Shown here: one piece after another, positions 28,478 through 38,459 of the stretch
How positions within the stretch are numbered: position 1 is the first letter of the stretch
Layout: every line of letters begins with the position of its first letter
The notes under the pieces: model-generated
What the model was told of the DNA's origin: nothing
Seen by the model: the letters and a program-made list of their open reading frames with translations, nothing else
Databases searched by the model: none
Program-made: the position numbers and the translations under genes
Source of the DNA: Clostridiales bacterium
Lineage (GTDB): Bacteria > Bacillota > Clostridia > Peptostreptococcales > Acidaminobacteraceae
Direction of reading: 5' to 3'
Assembly: GCA_016933835.1 (NCBI GenBank)
Contig: JAFGAC010000031.1
Span: 62,001-126,000 of the forward strand
DNA: 64,000 nt

Positions 28478-28580
28478 CCAACGATAAAGGCAAACTTTGT
28501 GAAAACAAAGGACGCAAAACTATAGGACCTTACCTTTAGGGTATGGTAGCCAGTTCTCGAATTAGAGAGATTTTTTGTTG
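28478..28580 (+). ncRNA. Cyclic-di-GMP-I (GEMM) riboswitch
   Basis: The conserved core of the GEMM aptamer is present in order: ACGATAAAGGCAAAC, the P1b hairpin CTTTGT-GAAA-ACAAAG with its GNRA tetraloop, GGACGCAAAACTATAGGACC, then GGTATGGTAGCC containing the TATGG half of a tetraloop receptor. A short hairpin (TTCTC-GAATTA-GAGAG) and six T follow at 28553-28576 as a possible intrinsic terminator. Outer CCAAC (28479-28483) and GTTGG (28576-28581) could also pair. The only downstream plus-strand genes are the M23 peptidase and bactofilin. Confidence 0.92.
28553..28576 (+). terminator. Possible riboswitch expression-platform terminator
   Basis: A five-base-pair hairpin TTCTC/GAGAG with six-base loop is followed by ATTTTTT directly after the aptamer. 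The stem is short. Its 5' arm overlaps bases that would close the aptamer, so ligand binding could disfavour it, but the direction of control cannot be settled by eye. Confidence 0.5.
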
Positions 28581-31081: not shown

Positions 31082-31098
31082 CTGAAGCTGCTTTTTTT
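31077..31098 (+). terminator. Terminator of TtcA-like gene
   Basis: AGTAGC-TGAA-GCTGCT (one wobble pair) followed by seven T, overlapping the stop codon. Confidence 0.82.
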
Positions 31099-32141
31099 TA
31101 TATCCAATGGCTCTCTTCATTTATATGTCTTGCAAATTCTTCTGCAATTTTTTCAAAATTATCTATTTTCAATATCTCACCTGCATCATTTGCATTGGCA
31201 TTGATTGAAAAATTTGGCGGCAATCTAAATCCCTTATTGATGGTCAATGCACCAATCAACTGTCTCAATGGCGAATCGCTTCCGCTATTCCCTGAAACAA
31301 CTATCGCAAAGATATTTTTCTCAATTAAAGAATGTCTCCTATACAAAACTGTCAATCGATTAATGACTGCCATCAATTTTGCACTGATTGCATCATTGTA
31401 ATTGGGTATCAACCATAAAATAGCATCTGCATTTTTTATTGCAGGAAGAATTTCTTTAACCATTATCCCACCATAGAAACAACTGTCTTGCTGTGCATAA
31501 TATTTGCAAGTCTTGTAGGAGCAACCTCTGCAATCCAAAACAGTGCCATCCTCTACATGTATTTCCTGATATTCAATTTTCAAATTTTTAGATACTTCTC
31601 TCCAAAAAATATGCGTGTTTGAAATATCAGGATTTGAATTTGCATGAAGCACCAGTAATTTGGGATTATCAATGTGTTTTTTTTCATATTTCTGAAGTCT
31701 TTGAATCAATTTTTCTATTAATTTGACAAATGTCTCATCTTTAGTCAACCCTAATTTATTTGACCACTTGTTTAAATTATCTAAATCTCCTAGTGCTTCA
31801 ATAAGTGGCTTTCCTATGACTGTCGCACCCATATTATTGCCGATAAAGGCAATTTCTTTTGCAATTTTCTTTGTATACAAAACACCTGATGAATAAACAA
31901 CCATTGCAATATAAGAGCCCTTAAAGCTCTCTTTGTCTATTAAATAGAGTTCATGCAAAAATGTCATCACTTCAAAATCCATTCCGATTTCATCAGCTTC
32001 CAAAAAAAACAATATTTTTGAATTTTTATAATTACCTTCAATATCTAGCGACATGTCTATAATATTTTTATCAATGGCTTCTATAACTTTCTCCATCTTT
32101 TCTGATAACTTTCTTTTTTTAATCAGTTTTATTTTCATCAT
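31098..32141 (-). CDS. Flavodoxin-fold protein with cysteine cluster
   Basis: A 347-residue protein. The second half (~160-345) has the NADPH-dependent FMN reductase/iron-sulfur-flavoprotein pattern: KLLVLHANSNPDISNTHIFW, then DCRGCSYKTCKYYAQQDSC with Cys204, 207, 212 and 221, and IKNADAILWLIPNYNDAISAKL. The first half (SKILFFLEADEIG, YIAMVVYSSGVLYTKKIA) looks like a second, degenerate flavodoxin-like domain. A redox role is likely; the substrate is unknown. Its start overlaps the dehydrogenase-like gene by 23 bases, so the two are translationally coupled. It is the last gene of the HD/NadD-like operon. Confidence 0.7.
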   Translation of the reverse strand: MMKIKLIKKRKLSEKMEKVIEAIDKNIIDMSLDIEGNYKNSKILFFLEADEIGMDFEVMTFLHELYLIDKESFKGSYIAMVVYSSGVLYTKKIAKEIAFIGNNMGATVIGKPLIEALGDLDNLNKWSNKLGLTKDETFVKLIEKLIQRLQKYEKKHIDNPKLLVLHANSNPDISNTHIFWREVSKNLKIEYQEIHVEDGTVLDCRGCSYKTCKYYAQQDSCFYGGIMVKEILPAIKNADAILWLIPNYNDAISAKLMAVINRLTVLYRRHSLIEKNIFAIVVSGNSGSDSPLRQLIGALTINKGFRLPPNFSINANANDAGEILKIDNFEKIAEEFARHINEESHWI

Positions 32142-33195
32142 AATAACTCACCATCTTATCAAATGAATCTTCAATTCTTTCCATCAGCTTTTCAGGTATT
32201 TCTTCAACATTCATCATAAATCCAAATTCAGTCATTTTGCCCTTCATTCCATAATAAAATCCATTGATATACTGAGAAGAATAAGTTGCTTCACCTCTTA
32301 AATAAGATAAAATTGAAAGTGCTCCTGAAGATATCGCAGGAGCGATATAAGGTTTAAATCCCAGCTTTCTTATTGTAAGATTAGCTTCCACTGTCACTTG
32401 AGTCAATTCTTTTGAAAGTTCATCATCATAATCTTCAACGCTGTTTGCCACGATCAATTCGCTCCCATGAGGACCATATATTCTTCCTTTTTCCTTAAAG
32501 TCATTTACTTGCATTTTTTTTGAAAAATAAAGTGCTCGGGCAAACATTACTCCTTGTCCAAATCCGGCAATCTGTGAAGGCAATAGTGCGCCATCACTTC
32601 TTTCAAGCGCCACTTTGCAAAGCAAATCAACGGGATCAGAAACGATTAAAAACAAACCTTTATACTCTTTTTCTTTAGCTGACTTCACATAAGCCGTAAG
32701 AATTTCACTGTTACCTTTGAATTGGACTTTCCTTACATCTACCGCTTCATCCCCTATGTCAGGTACTGATCGGCTAGCAGTGAAAATAACCACATCTGAA
32801 TTGAATATCTCATCTTCAGAAATTATTTCAATTGGTATATCAACGTCAAAATTCTCACTGTATATTTGATTCATTTCCATCTCATACCTCATACCACGCT
32901 CTTTCCCAGGATTATAAATGTTGATTGATTCAATGGTAGGATGACCTAGAAGTTTCAACCCCAACAATAAATTTCCTCCAACATCTCCAAGGCCGATAAT
33001 TGTAACAGTATAAGATTCTTTCAGATAATTTTTTATTCTATCACTATATTTTCTATTTATTTTTTGGACGTACTCTTTTTTATCCAAAAACGGCTTCTTG
33101 ATATTCAAATAATTCAAAGATTCTTCTTCATCCAACATCCGTAAATTGTTTACTACAATAGAATCTCTTCCCGTATCAGTAAAAATTTTTTTCAT
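32119..33195 (-). CDS. Lactate/malate dehydrogenase-like NAD-binding protein
   Basis: A 358-residue protein with a Rossmann motif VTIIGLGDVGGNLLLG (~64-79), VVIFTASRSVPD as coenzyme loop, IVSDPVDLL (in place of NPVD) and IYGPHGSELIVANS, where His243 matches the catalytic histidine of LDH/MDH. The usual D-x-x-R helix is altered (GFGQGVMFARALYF lacks the aspartate), so the standard proton relay is incomplete and the substrate may differ. An extra ~55-residue N-terminal segment precedes the NAD fold. It lies four bases after the 1628-residue gene. Confidence 0.8.
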   Translation of the reverse strand: MKKIFTDTGRDSIVVNNLRMLDEEESLNYLNIKKPFLDKKEYVQKINRKYSDRIKNYLKESYTVTIIGLGDVGGNLLLGLKLLGHPTIESINIYNPGKERGMRYEMEMNQIYSENFDVDIPIEIISEDEIFNSDVVIFTASRSVPDIGDEAVDVRKVQFKGNSEILTAYVKSAKEKEYKGLFLIVSDPVDLLCKVALERSDGALLPSQIAGFGQGVMFARALYFSKKMQVNDFKEKGRIYGPHGSELIVANSVEDYDDELSKELTQVTVEANLTIRKLGFKPYIAPAISSGALSILSYLRGEATYSSQYINGFYYGMKGKMTEFGFMMNVEEIPEKLMERIEDSFDKMVSYYDENKTD

Positions 33196-33199
33196 TTAA

Positions 33200-36100
33200 T
33201 CAGTCCTTTGAACAAATGTCTTTTAATCTTTCAAGGTGTTCTAAATCGTACTGCAGATAGTCACTTGCTTTCACGGATAAGTCCAATTTTTGCATTTCTC
33301 CTCTGTCAGGATATCTAGGATACACCATTACTTCAGGTAATGAACCCATGGTCAAACTTTTTTCATGAAGTTTTTGATATTCGTCCTCCAATGTCTTCAA
33401 TATATTCAACGCATTTGTAATTGCCACCCTAGACATATCATATATGGATTGCTTTGACGCACCTTTAATATATCCTGCAGAAGCATATGGCAATATAAGA
33501 TTGATTGATGGAATAATATTTCTTTCAGGATTTTGACCTCTCCACAAAGTATCTCCTCCTAAAAAAGGATAGAGTTTACTTTCATTAAACCATACTTTTA
33601 ATCGTGGTATGAAGTAAGCTGAATCGACTTCACGATTCTGCATTTCCATCAAAGACTTTCCTCTTCCTGACATAAGTCCTACAAATACTTTTTTGATTTC
33701 AATGTTTTCTGCCTTCAAAAGCGGATCCACAGCTTTAATCCTATAACCTTTGTTGAGCAAATCATCTACTAAAAATATTGGTCTATTGAATGATTTCAGC
33801 ATTTTTACCTGATTAAGCAAATCCAAGTAATATGGATATGCTTCTATTTCATAATCTTCAGCAGATGGCAACATGAATTTTTCAGTATGTAAAGACTTGG
33901 TTACTGTATTCGGCAAGATTCTTTTCTTGAAAATCTCTCCAAAAGGTACACACATAGCTTCTCCCAGTTGCCTTGGTTGCAGAGGTTCTGTCGGCATACC
34001 ATTTTCTTCCACAATTTTTTTAATCAAATGTTCATAAATCATATTTCTATCAAACGACAAAACTAAATTTCCAGGATAAAGCTTAGTAAGCGACATTAAA
34101 AGTTTTTCTCTTGTTCGATCAATGCTTTTCAATACATTTTCGTTATCTGAAAAAGGCTCTTTGATCATCGATCTTATATCCAGACTCAATGTGCAAGGTG
34201 CACTCATATTCACATGATATATACAGCTGTCTTTACTAGAGCACAGCTTTACAAAACCTTGAAGAATAAGTACTTTTTCAACATTCTTATGTGGCCTGCT
34301 TATAATGAAGTCTCGATAAATTGCGTACGTATAGTCACGCGCTAAATTATATGCCAAAGTTTCAGTAACAAGCAACTGTTCAACATTTCTCATCAGACAT
34401 TGATCATTGGCATAAATGCCATCAATCATCAAAATTCTTCCAACTGAATTGTTTCGAATAGCTTCTTCATACAATGGATCTTTGAATTCATTGTAAATTT
34501 TACTTGATCGGAGCCAATGAAATACAGCAAATCCTATTATCTCATTCTCATCCAATCTTTTTTTGACCACCAAGACTCTTGCTTTGTTAAGTTTTATATA
34601 CTCACTGATTCTTTCAAATTCATTCAGCTTGTATTTAGGCAAAACATCCAATAGTTCTCTTAGATCATCGTCTGCAATATTATCAAGTATTTCAACATCA
34701 ATTGATTTTGTTGTCATAATTTCTTTGAATTGAGGTTCTCTTAAATACAATCCTTTTTTATAAATGAATTTTTGTGCCAAGGGATCAATAAGTTCTGAAA
34801 TATCCCTATTTTCATCAATATAGGTTCTTATCTGAGTAGAACTTATAATTTGCAACTTATCAGGTAGGGTTAGATATTCTACCGATATACCGTATTCTTT
34901 GACACGTTCTTCTAATATTTTAAATTGAACACCAAGATCATTGCTTTCATCCCGCGTGAAAATAACATGATTCAAAGAATGAATGCTGTGCTCTTTTTTT
35001 TCTTTTCTATAGGCAGATGCGTTCATGACAACATCGCTGCCTGCAACAAGATTAACAGTTACATTTCCAAAGTAATCCTTTAGATTTTTAATATCCTCTT
35101 CATTGGCGATATTCACTTGCAAATCTCTAGGAAAAACAAACATGCCAAATTCATCGGCGACAGACATTTTAATAATAGCTCTCCGAATTAAATTAGGTTG
35201 TGTTCTCTTAGACCAAGAGAACTCATCAACTGCTAAATAGACTTCATAGCCAAGATCTCTAATTCTTTTTGCAATTTCCTTATGGCTGAGACTGAATGGA
35301 TCAAAGGCCCCTGGGAAATAGGCTATTCGATTATTTATTTCAATTTTCAAATCTCCGTAATAAAACAGATAATCTGATAAAAACCTATAAATATGCTTTA
35401 TGCCAGCTGCATTGTTAAGGAAATTCAGTTCAAGATTCTCATCATTGTTTACAAGCAGTGATAAAAATTTCTTTCCAATTATCTTGAATACAAACGCTTT
35501 TTCCTTCAAAGACAATATTTTTGAACCAAAAATATCTTTTCCCAGAACGCTGATGGCCATCTGATTCACTTGGGGCTCATAACTGACATATCCATTCATA
35601 ATGATGCTAAGTAAATCTTTCAGTCTTACCATGAGTTCATCGTTTGATTCGTTGAATGCATATCTATACTTAGGATAATTGATGATAAAAACTCCCACTG
35701 TCTTCAGTATCAATGTACTCACTTGTCGATTGGATTTTTTGATTTTAATTTTAAAATCTTTAATGATTTCATTAAGTTCTTTTGGTGCAATATGCACCAG
35801 CATGATACCTAAATATTCTGGTATATATTTTGTGTATTGAAAATTTTCAAGTTCAAGCGCTCTTAGAAGCTCAACAACTATCTCTGTTTTTTCCTCAAAG
35901 GAAAGATGACTTGTCAGATAAGTAAGCCCTTCACCAATAGCCGTTCTCACTTCTTCATTGTTGACAATTTTCAACATGTTGCTGAAGTGCATTGCCGTAT
36001 AAAAACCTTTTGTCTCTTTATTGTAAATACCGTACTTCAAGAGAATTTCCACCTGAAGCTTTTTAGAAATCATTTTTGTTCCTACTTTTAAATTACTGAG

Positions 36101-38086
36101 AAACAAGTCTGAAGAACTCTCCAAATCACTGAAAATAAATTCGTTTTTTTGCTCAATAAGTTCATTGTTTGGATCAATCATCTCTAGATTTTTTACAATT
36201 GCATACGCTTCTGTTCTGTCAAGTTCCTCTAATTTGTCATAGTAGGAAGAAATGTCTATTTCTTTTTTTACTGATTCTTCAATATAAGGTAAAAGCGTGC
36301 TCAAAGTATCCCATGCAATCAATCTCACTTCATCATCAGAATTAACAGTAATCTGCAAAACTCTGTCGATGATGTATTTTGTCTGATCAGTCGTCATCAT
36401 ATATATTGGGAGCACTTTAGCTATATCAAGAAAACATTTCATATGATGCCCTTTATGACAATGGGGATCAATTGTATCAAGAACCTTTTGAAGTTTTTCA
36501 AGTTTGGCTTCTTCTTCGATGTTGTTGAAATATGACTTAAGCATTGATTTAAGATTTCTTGAGATAACAACACGATGTTTTTCTATTATTTTTTGCTCGG
36601 GATCCAAAAATCCATTGATATATTTGTACAACAGATCATCTGAACTGACTTCAAGTGATGATACCCTCGCTCTTGGCGGCAATTCTTTCCTGATTTTTTC
36701 ATCAAAAGTTGCAATAATTTCTCCGATAAGCTGAGCTGATTCAATTCTAATGTCCTCTTCAGGTGTTATGAGTCTTTCATATAAGAATTTTATAACCATC
36801 AATTTTTGTTTCTGAGTCAAGTAAGTGTAGTATTCTTGTACAATATTGATATATCCTCTTAAGCTGTTAATATTATCAATCCCGCGTGCATTCTCCAACA
36901 TTTTGTTCAAGGAATTTTCCGTTTTAATCATATTCATCAATTGAATGTTATGGCTGATTGACATGAATTTAGTGCCTTCAACAATTTCCTGCCCTTGTAC
37001 AAGTGAATAATATCTTCTATTTGCTACTACAATCTCATCTTTTTCAATATCGAAATCAGGACTTAAGTTAATCTCATATTCTCTTAGATATTCTTCAAAA
37101 TCCTTCAATTTTGCATATACTCTTAGATATCTATTTTTCTTTACTTCATCTACATTATCAAGCTTCTTCAAAATGACCTCGAAAGAATCTTCCAAAGAAT
37201 AAAATTTCATTTCTCCATTCAAACCCTGTTTAACTCTGAAATCACAATAAATCAGTAAAAGGGATTCTATTGTCAGGTTTTCAAGTTCCAAATCCCAAGT
37301 TGAATGATTTATGGCGATATTTCTTATGTATACAATTTCTCTTTTTCGAAACCATTCTCCTGAATAATAATAATGATAATAAGCGACCTTGTGCGCTTCA
37401 TCAGGCAATGTTCCAAATTTTCCTATGTCATGGCCTGCAGCGGCACCAGAAACTAATCCCAAGTCAATTTCTAGGTCTTTTAAGTACAATTGTCTGGAGA
37501 TACTCATCGCTATGTGATGGACACCACAGATATGATCCAAGGTATTATATCCTATTACATCTTGATTCAATTTCATCATTTCATACAAATAATCATCATT
37601 GAATGCTGCCGTAAATTTTTTATATTCATCAGATGAATCAAACTTTTTATACTCATTTTTATCCATCAGCCTTAGGGCATATGTGCTTTGCCAATTCCCA
37701 CAATCACACTCTTTTTCGAATTTGAATATGACATGAAAAAGCTTTAACGATAAATCCATTACCCCTCTGTTTTCTTCAGTAGTAAACACTTGAGCGGCTT
37801 CAGGAAAAGACTTTTCCAATGAATAATTGTAAATATATTCAAGTATGTTTGATTCATTGATGTTTGAATCTTTATTTAAAGTCAATATTAGATTTTTAAA
37901 AGCAGCAAACACCTTATATGAATTAAAATCCTTTTCAGATACACAAGTATTTATATGCGTATAGAACTCATTTCCGAAAATAAAATTTTCAATTATATCG
38001 TAATTTAAACCATAATCATCTAAAAATTTTTGATTCAACACTTCGATTTTTATCTGTTCAAATATTTTATTAGAAATTCGATACAT
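33200..38086 (-). CDS. Giant HD / helical-repeat / NadD-like / GNAT-like / PRTase-like fusion protein
   Basis: A 1628-residue soluble protein with at least five parts. (1) An HD hydrolase at ~180-290, with His185, the His219-Asp220 pair in AAAGHDIGKFG, and His261. (2) A long helical, HEAT-like region at ~400-910. (3) A nucleotidyltransferase at ~920-1115 with YFPGAFDPFSLSHKEI (Gly926, Asp929, His935) and ISSTQIR (1081-1087), the two signatures of NadD/cytidylyltransferases. (4) A GNAT-like region at ~1130-1285. (5) A phosphoribosyltransferase-like domain at ~1340-1560 whose PRPP-type loop reads FLVDDLLNKGYR (1438-1449), with Lys where Thr is usual. The reactions are unknown. GGGGGG precedes the ATG. 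It heads an operon with dehydrogenase-like and flavodoxin-like genes. Confidence 0.75.
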   Translation of the reverse strand: MYRISNKIFEQIKIEVLNQKFLDDYGLNYDIIENFIFGNEFYTHINTCVSEKDFNSYKVFAAFKNLILTLNKDSNINESNILEYIYNYSLEKSFPEAAQVFTTEENRGVMDLSLKLFHVIFKFEKECDCGNWQSTYALRLMDKNEYKKFDSSDEYKKFTAAFNDDYLYEMMKLNQDVIGYNTLDHICGVHHIAMSISRQLYLKDLEIDLGLVSGAAAGHDIGKFGTLPDEAHKVAYYHYYYSGEWFRKREIVYIRNIAINHSTWDLELENLTIESLLLIYCDFRVKQGLNGEMKFYSLEDSFEVILKKLDNVDEVKKNRYLRVYAKLKDFEEYLREYEINLSPDFDIEKDEIVVANRRYYSLVQGQEIVEGTKFMSISHNIQLMNMIKTENSLNKMLENARGIDNINSLRGYINIVQEYYTYLTQKQKLMVIKFLYERLITPEEDIRIESAQLIGEIIATFDEKIRKELPPRARVSSLEVSSDDLLYKYINGFLDPEQKIIEKHRVVISRNLKSMLKSYFNNIEEEAKLEKLQKVLDTIDPHCHKGHHMKCFLDIAKVLPIYMMTTDQTKYIIDRVLQITVNSDDEVRLIAWDTLSTLLPYIEESVKKEIDISSYYDKLEELDRTEAYAIVKNLEMIDPNNELIEQKNEFIFSDLESSSDLFLSNLKVGTKMISKKLQVEILLKYGIYNKETKGFYTAMHFSNMLKIVNNEEVRTAIGEGLTYLTSHLSFEEKTEIVVELLRALELENFQYTKYIPEYLGIMLVHIAPKELNEIIKDFKIKIKKSNRQVSTLILKTVGVFIINYPKYRYAFNESNDELMVRLKDLLSIIMNGYVSYEPQVNQMAISVLGKDIFGSKILSLKEKAFVFKIIGKKFLSLLVNNDENLELNFLNNAAGIKHIYRFLSDYLFYYGDLKIEINNRIAYFPGAFDPFSLSHKEIAKRIRDLGYEVYLAVDEFSWSKRTQPNLIRRAIIKMSVADEFGMFVFPRDLQVNIANEEDIKNLKDYFGNVTVNLVAGSDVVMNASAYRKEKKEHSIHSLNHVIFTRDESNDLGVQFKILEERVKEYGISVEYLTLPDKLQIISSTQIRTYIDENRDISELIDPLAQKFIYKKGLYLREPQFKEIMTTKSIDVEILDNIADDDLRELLDVLPKYKLNEFERISEYIKLNKARVLVVKKRLDENEIIGFAVFHWLRSSKIYNEFKDPLYEEAIRNNSVGRILMIDGIYANDQCLMRNVEQLLVTETLAYNLARDYTYAIYRDFIISRPHKNVEKVLILQGFVKLCSSKDSCIYHVNMSAPCTLSLDIRSMIKEPFSDNENVLKSIDRTREKLLMSLTKLYPGNLVLSFDRNMIYEHLIKKIVEENGMPTEPLQPRQLGEAMCVPFGEIFKKRILPNTVTKSLHTEKFMLPSAEDYEIEAYPYYLDLLNQVKMLKSFNRPIFLVDDLLNKGYRIKAVDPLLKAENIEIKKVFVGLMSGRGKSLMEMQNREVDSAYFIPRLKVWFNESKLYPFLGGDTLWRGQNPERNIIPSINLILPYASAGYIKGASKQSIYDMSRVAITNALNILKTLEDEYQKLHEKSLTMGSLPEVMVYPRYPDRGEMQKLDLSVKASDYLQYDLEHLERLKDICSKD

Positions 38087-38122
38087 ATAATTCCCCCCTA
38101 CTCTATCATTATCTTATCATAT

Positions 38123-38210: not shown

Positions 38211-38459
38211 ATGGCAAAATTCGACATGATGGAAATAAAAAGAAAATTGGAAATTGAAAGAGCACAAAACAGAAAACCTGTAAAAGAAACACTAGGTCAA
38301 AAAATCTTGATGGTTTTTGTTACGGTAGTCAGTTTGGCTATCTTATATTCATTTATATTATCGTATGATTTATCGAATACAATCAATTATTCAGTTTTAG
38401 CAGTTTTTATTGTTCTAATTGTTCTTAGAATCATTCAAGTTTCAAAACGCAAAATATAA
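38211..38459 (+). CDS. Small two-span membrane protein, function unknown
   Basis: An 82-residue protein with a charged N-terminal ~30 residues and two membrane segments (~30-49 and ~58-75), ending in SKRKI. I recognise no family. GAGGTG lies seven bases before the ATG, and it has its own promoter and terminator, so it is probably a real gene. It is convergent with the BrkB-like gene. Confidence 0.7.
   Translation: MAKFDMMEIKRKLEIERAQNRKPVKETLGQKILMVFVTVVSLAILYSFILSYDLSNTINYSVLAVFIVLIVLRIIQVSKRKI

Follow-up and report, generated by a model that had tools for sequence, protein, structure and literature searches.

Introduction

NadD-fold enzymes move nucleotidyl groups onto phosphorylated acceptors, and two-metal HD enzymes such as YqeK cleave phosphoanhydrides. 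Both are joined in the fused NadD-YqeK protein of a minimal mycoplasma (NF005519/PRK07152; JCVISYN3A_0380), which makes analogues of nicotinic acid adenine dinucleotide (NaAD), its HD part hydrolysing them (PMC9426524). Here we describe a related arrangement in a Clostridiales bacterium (assembly GCA_016933835.1), in a window of 64,000 nucleotides that is the whole stretch analysed (contig JAFGAC010000031.1, positions 62,001 to 126,000). A 1628-residue protein, which we call GIANT, likewise carries a NadD-fold adenylyltransferase domain and an HD hydrolase domain in one chain, and its gene precedes those of two redox proteins, which we call LDHL and FMNL. In contrast to the NadD-YqeK fusion, the order of the two domains is reversed, with HD first, the HD domain does not match a small profile of YqeK sequences, HEAT, GNAT-like and phosphoribosyltransferase (PRTase)-like domains are added, the nicotinate motif is lost, and a canonical NadD is also present. 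Genomes tend to hold or to lack the three genes as a set, a pattern suggestive of a nucleotide or cofactor pathway not yet described. From the NadD and HD chemistry and the NadD-YqeK precedent, we infer that GIANT may be a make-and-break enzyme for an adenylylated nucleotide, and that the two redox enzymes would then use this product or complete it; we hold this reading tentatively, with somewhat less than even confidence. No profile library names the family, and no earlier description was found in a search of largely open-access literature.

A three-gene operon of anaerobic Bacillota

The operon has the following features, in window coordinates:

33200-38086, minus strand: GIANT, an HD / HEAT / NadD-like / GNAT-like / PRTase-like protein of 1628 amino acids (open reading frame, full-length homologues, AlphaFold)
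32119-33195, minus strand: LDHL, a lactate/malate dehydrogenase (LDH/MDH)-like NAD-binding oxidoreductase of 358 amino acids (open reading frame, sequence matches)
31098-32141, minus strand: FMNL, an FMN_red/flavodoxin-fold protein with an N-terminal extension, 347 amino acids (open reading frame, Pfam)
38091-38099, minus strand: clear, strong ribosome-binding site AGGGGGGAA, 5' of the GIANT start codon (sequence)
37052-37669, minus strand: HD domain, GIANT residues 140-345 (six-ligand, two-metal H..HD..H..H..D pattern)
35357-36991, minus strand: HEAT-repeat solenoid, GIANT residues about 366-910 (Pfam HEAT, fold searches)
34733-35332, minus strand: NadD/NMNAT-like adenylyltransferase domain, GIANT residues about 919-1118, with GAFDPFSLSH, DEFSWSK and ISSTQIR
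34187-34705, minus strand: GNAT-like domain, GIANT residues about 1128-1300, with no recognisable acetyl-CoA loop
33347-34159, minus strand: type I PRTase-like domain, GIANT residues about 1310-1580, with the loop FLVDDLLNKGYR

The three open reading frames, their spacing and their motifs are exactly as in the original prediction, which a model had made from the DNA letters: a gap of 4 bases separates GIANT from LDHL, and LDHL and FMNL overlap by 23 bases. Among 61 related genomes, 44 have a homologue of GIANT (of 47 raw matches, three are to canonical NadD only), as do 32 of the 391 genomes sampled class-wide and 8 of the 398 sampled phylum-wide; some of the compared genomes are incomplete. 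The spread is that of anaerobic Bacillota, and the homologues are about 1,600-1,650 residues long, with some split or shorter. Co-occurrence of GIANT and LDHL is perfect in the 61 related genomes, 44 having both and 17 neither once the three weak NadD-only matches are discounted, and the distribution of FMNL tracks them except at contig ends. Across about 70 neighbourhoods, the only common feature is that GIANT, LDHL and FMNL follow one another in this order on the same strand, in many cases overlapping, and no other conserved neighbour was found; in a few genomes the three genes are separated by others or lie apart. As this arrangement is kept in dozens of genomes, chance is excluded. The homologues thus do sit with the other two genes, and the proposal that tight coupling implies a single pathway is supported.

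In the window's family, the genes of a flanking SPFH pair, a BrkB-like protein and a PP-loop protein are syntenic as well, in many genera, which indicates vertical inheritance. The mean divergence of GIANT is 0.55 against 0.50 for canonical NadD, and the two correlate (r 0.73). Distances among the three proteins correlate beyond the species signal (partial r 0.57-0.64, 16 genomes). These data bear on a role in anti-phage defence or another conflict system acting via nucleotide chemistry, where large multidomain nucleotide-acting proteins are common. With no PADLOC match, no relative in viral contigs, synteny stable across genera and divergence like that of a housekeeping enzyme, a defence system was rejected as a candidate, and we regard any such role as very improbable. 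A link to sporulation was also dropped, Spo0A being absent from the organism's own genome and from many carriers.

Predicted domains of GIANT

Two AlphaFold models, made from alignments of 54 sequences (the window protein and translated homologous loci), cover residues 1-925 (predicted local distance difference test score, pLDDT, 89.5; predicted template modelling score, pTM, 0.86) and residues 880-1628 (pLDDT 89.1; pTM 0.87). PDB searches with the whole halves list only HEAT proteins for the N-terminal half and NadD-type proteins for the C-terminal half, so that the evidence for the HD, GNAT and PRTase folds comes from elsewhere. The domains named in the original prediction hold up, with a nicotinamide mononucleotide (NMN) adenylyltransferase (NMNAT) fold that is clear and a PRTase fold that is likely.

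The NadD-like domain scores above the cut-off of CTP_transf_like, and its best PDB matches are all NadD/NMNAT, led by NadD of M. tuberculosis (4rpi_B; Z 20.4, root-mean-square deviation 2.4, 186 residues aligned). Profile comparison with the NadDs of the same clade gives E 2.3e-19, the NF005519 model of the NadD-YqeK fusion matches the NadD part in 45 of 54 homologues, and the NadD model TIGR00482 scores 32.6 bits, below its curated cut-off of 112.45. Motifs were compared between 65 GIANT domains and 24 canonical NadDs of the same clade. GIANT domains share the fold and retain GxFDP, the second His of HxGH, and ISSTxIR. They differ in that HxGH has become (S/T)LSH, the first His being replaced by Ser/Thr in a manner comparable to TxGH of CoaD, and in that PHK has become WSK; the SYT-type motif is absent from their consensus and the Trp has become Tyr, whereas the canonical NadDs have both.

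A canonical NadD scores over the cut-off in 58 of the 61 genomes, which rules out replacement of the housekeeping NadD by GIANT. With the nicotinate-site motif gone and an ordinary NadD nearly universal, GIANT is not the housekeeping NAD enzyme, and its acceptor would not simply be nicotinic acid mononucleotide (NaMN). It is possible that GIANT acts instead in NAD salvage or repair, with NMN, NaMN or a damaged nicotinamide nucleotide as acceptor, the HD domain proofreading as YqeK does and the redox proteins handling damaged or reduced forms. The kinship of the nucleotidyltransferase (NTase) domain with NadD/NMNAT, the proofreading precedent of NadD-YqeK and the Rossmann-type NAD-binding half retained by LDHL all speak for this. 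The canonical NadD in nearly every genome, the loss of the SYT motif and the Trp, and a PRTase-like domain that seems, from its sequence, to resemble purine-type (type I) enzymes and not nicotinate or nicotinamide PRTases speak against it. We consider NAD salvage or repair unlikely, and the nicotinamide pathway hinted at in the original prediction does not stand as stated. In five loci of genomes that also carry GIANT (L202, L207, L212, L218, L222), the open frame of the canonical NadD is about 400 residues long, as would fit a NadD-YqeK fusion.

Pfam HD is matched in 38 of 54 homologues. Three metal-binding residues of this domain had been named beforehand; all six ligands of a two-metal site (H185, H219, D220, H238, H261 and D282) are invariant, in the H..HD..H..H..D pattern of the diadenosine tetraphosphate (Ap4A) hydrolase YqeK (PMC8177086). 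This conservation points to a putative two-metal hydrolase. The predicted helical-repeat region is a HEAT solenoid, with Pfam HEAT matched in 27 of 54 homologues and HEAT proteins returned by a fold search over residues 383-917.

Assignment of the GNAT-like and PRTase-like domains combines weak sequence scores with model folds. The former has many GNAT matches in a viral structure library and a profile comparison E of 0.0013, against 0.1-0.6 for controls. Pfam GNAT gave no match to it, and the acetyl-CoA loop (R/Q)xxGx(G/A) is absent from its alignment consensus, the fold alone matching. For the PRTase-like domain, the profile comparison value is 0.002, with the controls at 0.2-0.7, and five of six PDB profile matches are PRTase-fold proteins, aligned on the VDD loop. 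PF00156 matches weakly: 19 of the 54 members reach E <= 0.1, the best with 2.8e-4, and the window protein itself has no match. The Apt/HPRT models of NCBIfam match weakly in up to 37 of 54 homologues. The domain shares the VDD loop and the beta-alpha pattern with type I PRTases (PF00156; Apt, HPRT), and it has additional conserved motifs, WFNE and YPFxGGD.

Redox partners

The LDH/MDH-like and flavodoxin-fold, Cys-cluster assignments of the two downstream proteins were both confirmed. LDHL matches the Rossmann NAD-binding half of L-lactate/malate dehydrogenases (PF00056; best PDB E 1.1e-13) and keeps R155, R220 and H243, the equivalents of LDH Arg109, Arg171 and His195. It differs from these enzymes by SDPVD and GVM in place of SNPVD and LDxxR, Asn140 becoming Asp, as well as by an N-terminal extension and a diverged C-terminal half. 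FMNL matches PF03358 (FMN_red; E 2.6e-18). Its four invariant cysteines (Cys204, 207, 212 and 221) align with the Isf-type CxGCxxC...C motif of FMN_red paralogues in related genomes. With Isf-type iron-sulfur flavoproteins it shares the flavodoxin fold and the four cysteines, and it differs from them in the spacing CxxCx4Cx8C and an N-terminal extension of about 150 residues.

Second copies and domain loss

Some genomes encode a second GIANT. Those tested, together with one in which the genes lie apart (G756), have exactly one LDHL each, and no second copy adjoins LDHL or FMNL. The GIANTs adjacent to LDHL retain (S/T)xxH, K960 and ISS(T/S)xIR in essentially all cases. Among the 12 second copies examined that have an NTase region, 11 show loss of NTase residues (His replaced by Gln, Lys by Arg or another residue, ISST lost), their HD ligands being intact and their PRTase residues mostly so. 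In a tree of GIANTs built without the NTase columns, the degraded copies fall in two separate groups, indicating that the NTase residues were lost at least twice. Conversely, four three-gene GIANTs from two genera (L101-L104, in G019, G031, G033 and G023; 1075-1201 residues) lack the HD domain, through one event on the tree. They retain the NTase and PRTase domains and LDHL, and the same genomes hold an HD-bearing second copy elsewhere. The simplest reading of these patterns is that NTase activity would serve the LDHL/FMNL pathway, and that HD activity would be needed in the cell and could sit on another chain. As the independent events are few (two losses and one split), the weight of this argument is limited.

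Most full-length second copies adjoin an APH-type kinase gene instead. These genes encode APH-family small-molecule kinases, choline kinase / fructosamine kinase-like (L070, L106-L109, L113, L242, L243; G016:C12:79588-80487), and the best-matching kinases are nearly all located at second-GIANT loci. The HD-less GIANTs of L101-L104 lie directly downstream of a CoaD-sized gene.

The natural separation of HD and NTase activities between paralogues also bears on an alarmone switch, in which the NTase would make and the HD domain break a dinucleotide signal (Ap4A-like or similar) that the redox proteins sense or answer. Rel/SpoT proteins have such a logic, with synthesis and HD hydrolysis domains in one chain; the likeness is one of analogy only, and the NTase fold differs. 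In GIANT, the solenoid joins the two domains in one chain, and the two-metal HD pattern is the one seen in YqeK. However, one would not usually expect such a switch to include a PRTase and to be co-transcribed with two metabolic redox enzymes, and the HD domain gave no match to the small YqeK profile. We regard this explanation as decidedly unlikely.

Neighbouring features

An Rfam match upstream of GIANT, sought as a riboswitch clue to the ligand, was found neither in the window nor in seven relatives, and promoter-like sites near the operon are no commoner than chance. Divergent from GIANT lies a gene for an 82-amino-acid protein (38211-38459, plus strand; family f22), which is kept in the closest relatives and has no Pfam match. 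Farther away, a cyclic diguanylate (c-di-GMP)-I riboswitch (28479-28561, plus strand; 71 bits) lies about 280 bases upstream of M23 peptidase and bactofilin genes, which suggests c-di-GMP control of cell-wall or shape genes.

Discussion

In the pathway that we propose, the NadD-like domain would transfer AMP, or another nucleotidyl group, from a nucleoside triphosphate to a phosphorylated nucleotide-like acceptor, giving a dinucleotide. The two-metal HD domain would hydrolyse that dinucleotide or its defective forms, or else some related nucleotide. The PRTase-like domain may bind or attach the ribose-phosphate side, and the HEAT solenoid and the GNAT-like domain might hold the active sites together. 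LDHL, presumably NAD-dependent, and the putative iron-sulfur flavoprotein FMNL would then act on the product or its precursor by reduction or oxidation, or employ the product as a cofactor. The domain content, the conserved active-site residues, the strict co-occurrence and gene order, the link of adenylyltransferase residues to the redox genes and the separability of the HD domain are observed; we infer that each domain is catalytically active, which way the reactions run and how the steps follow one another. In a stronger version, which we judge unlikely, the adenylylated nucleotide produced and consumed by the three gene products would be one not described so far, serving as a redox cofactor or signal other than NAD, FAD, CoA and F420. 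That a single protein of 1,630 residues both synthesises and hydrolyses such a new nucleotide, across anaerobic Bacillota, belongs to the same reading and is to be taken with the same reserve.

Several observations weigh against the make-and-break pathway. The HD domain gave no match to a small YqeK profile (4 sequences), so that direct kinship with YqeK found no support there. NCBIfam matches of the domain include no YqeK model, and the library models closest to it, TIGR00295 and DVU_1551, both score far below cut-off. The PRTase fold is likely, with weak sequence support, the weakest among the domain calls; the phosphoribosyl pyrophosphate (PRPP) loop keeps its acidic pair but its phosphate part ends in xKGYR (NKGYR) and is not of the TGGT type. 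PRTase residues are changed in a few three-gene GIANTs that are distantly related (L130, L131). In LDHL, the equivalent of the catalytic Asp168 is Met. One second copy, L070, has an intact adenylyltransferase and no adjacent LDHL, and the incomplete genome G232 has a partial GIANT and no LDHL match.

The missing Asp168 would also fit a different explanation, in which the enzyme folds serve mainly to bind ligands and the HEAT scaffold bearing them controls the redox proteins accordingly, as would the GNAT-like part without an acetyl-CoA loop and the degraded NTase domains of second copies. In the three-gene copies, however, the metal ligands and the residues of the ATP site and the PRPP loop hardly vary from class to class, as in active enzymes, and we think a ligand-sensing scaffold quite unlikely.

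The biological interest of GIANT is that of a very large protein, widely conserved and without a name, in which two or more catalytic centres look intact and which is inseparable from two redox genes; this implies a gap in the known nucleotide or cofactor metabolism of anaerobes. The natural split of copies, with the adenylyltransferase beside the redox genes and the HD domain elsewhere, provides direct, testable predictions. If NAD repair were the true function, the idea of NadD-YqeK proofreading would be extended to a much larger machine. A new dinucleotide cofactor or signal, should the product instead prove to be one, would be among very few known.

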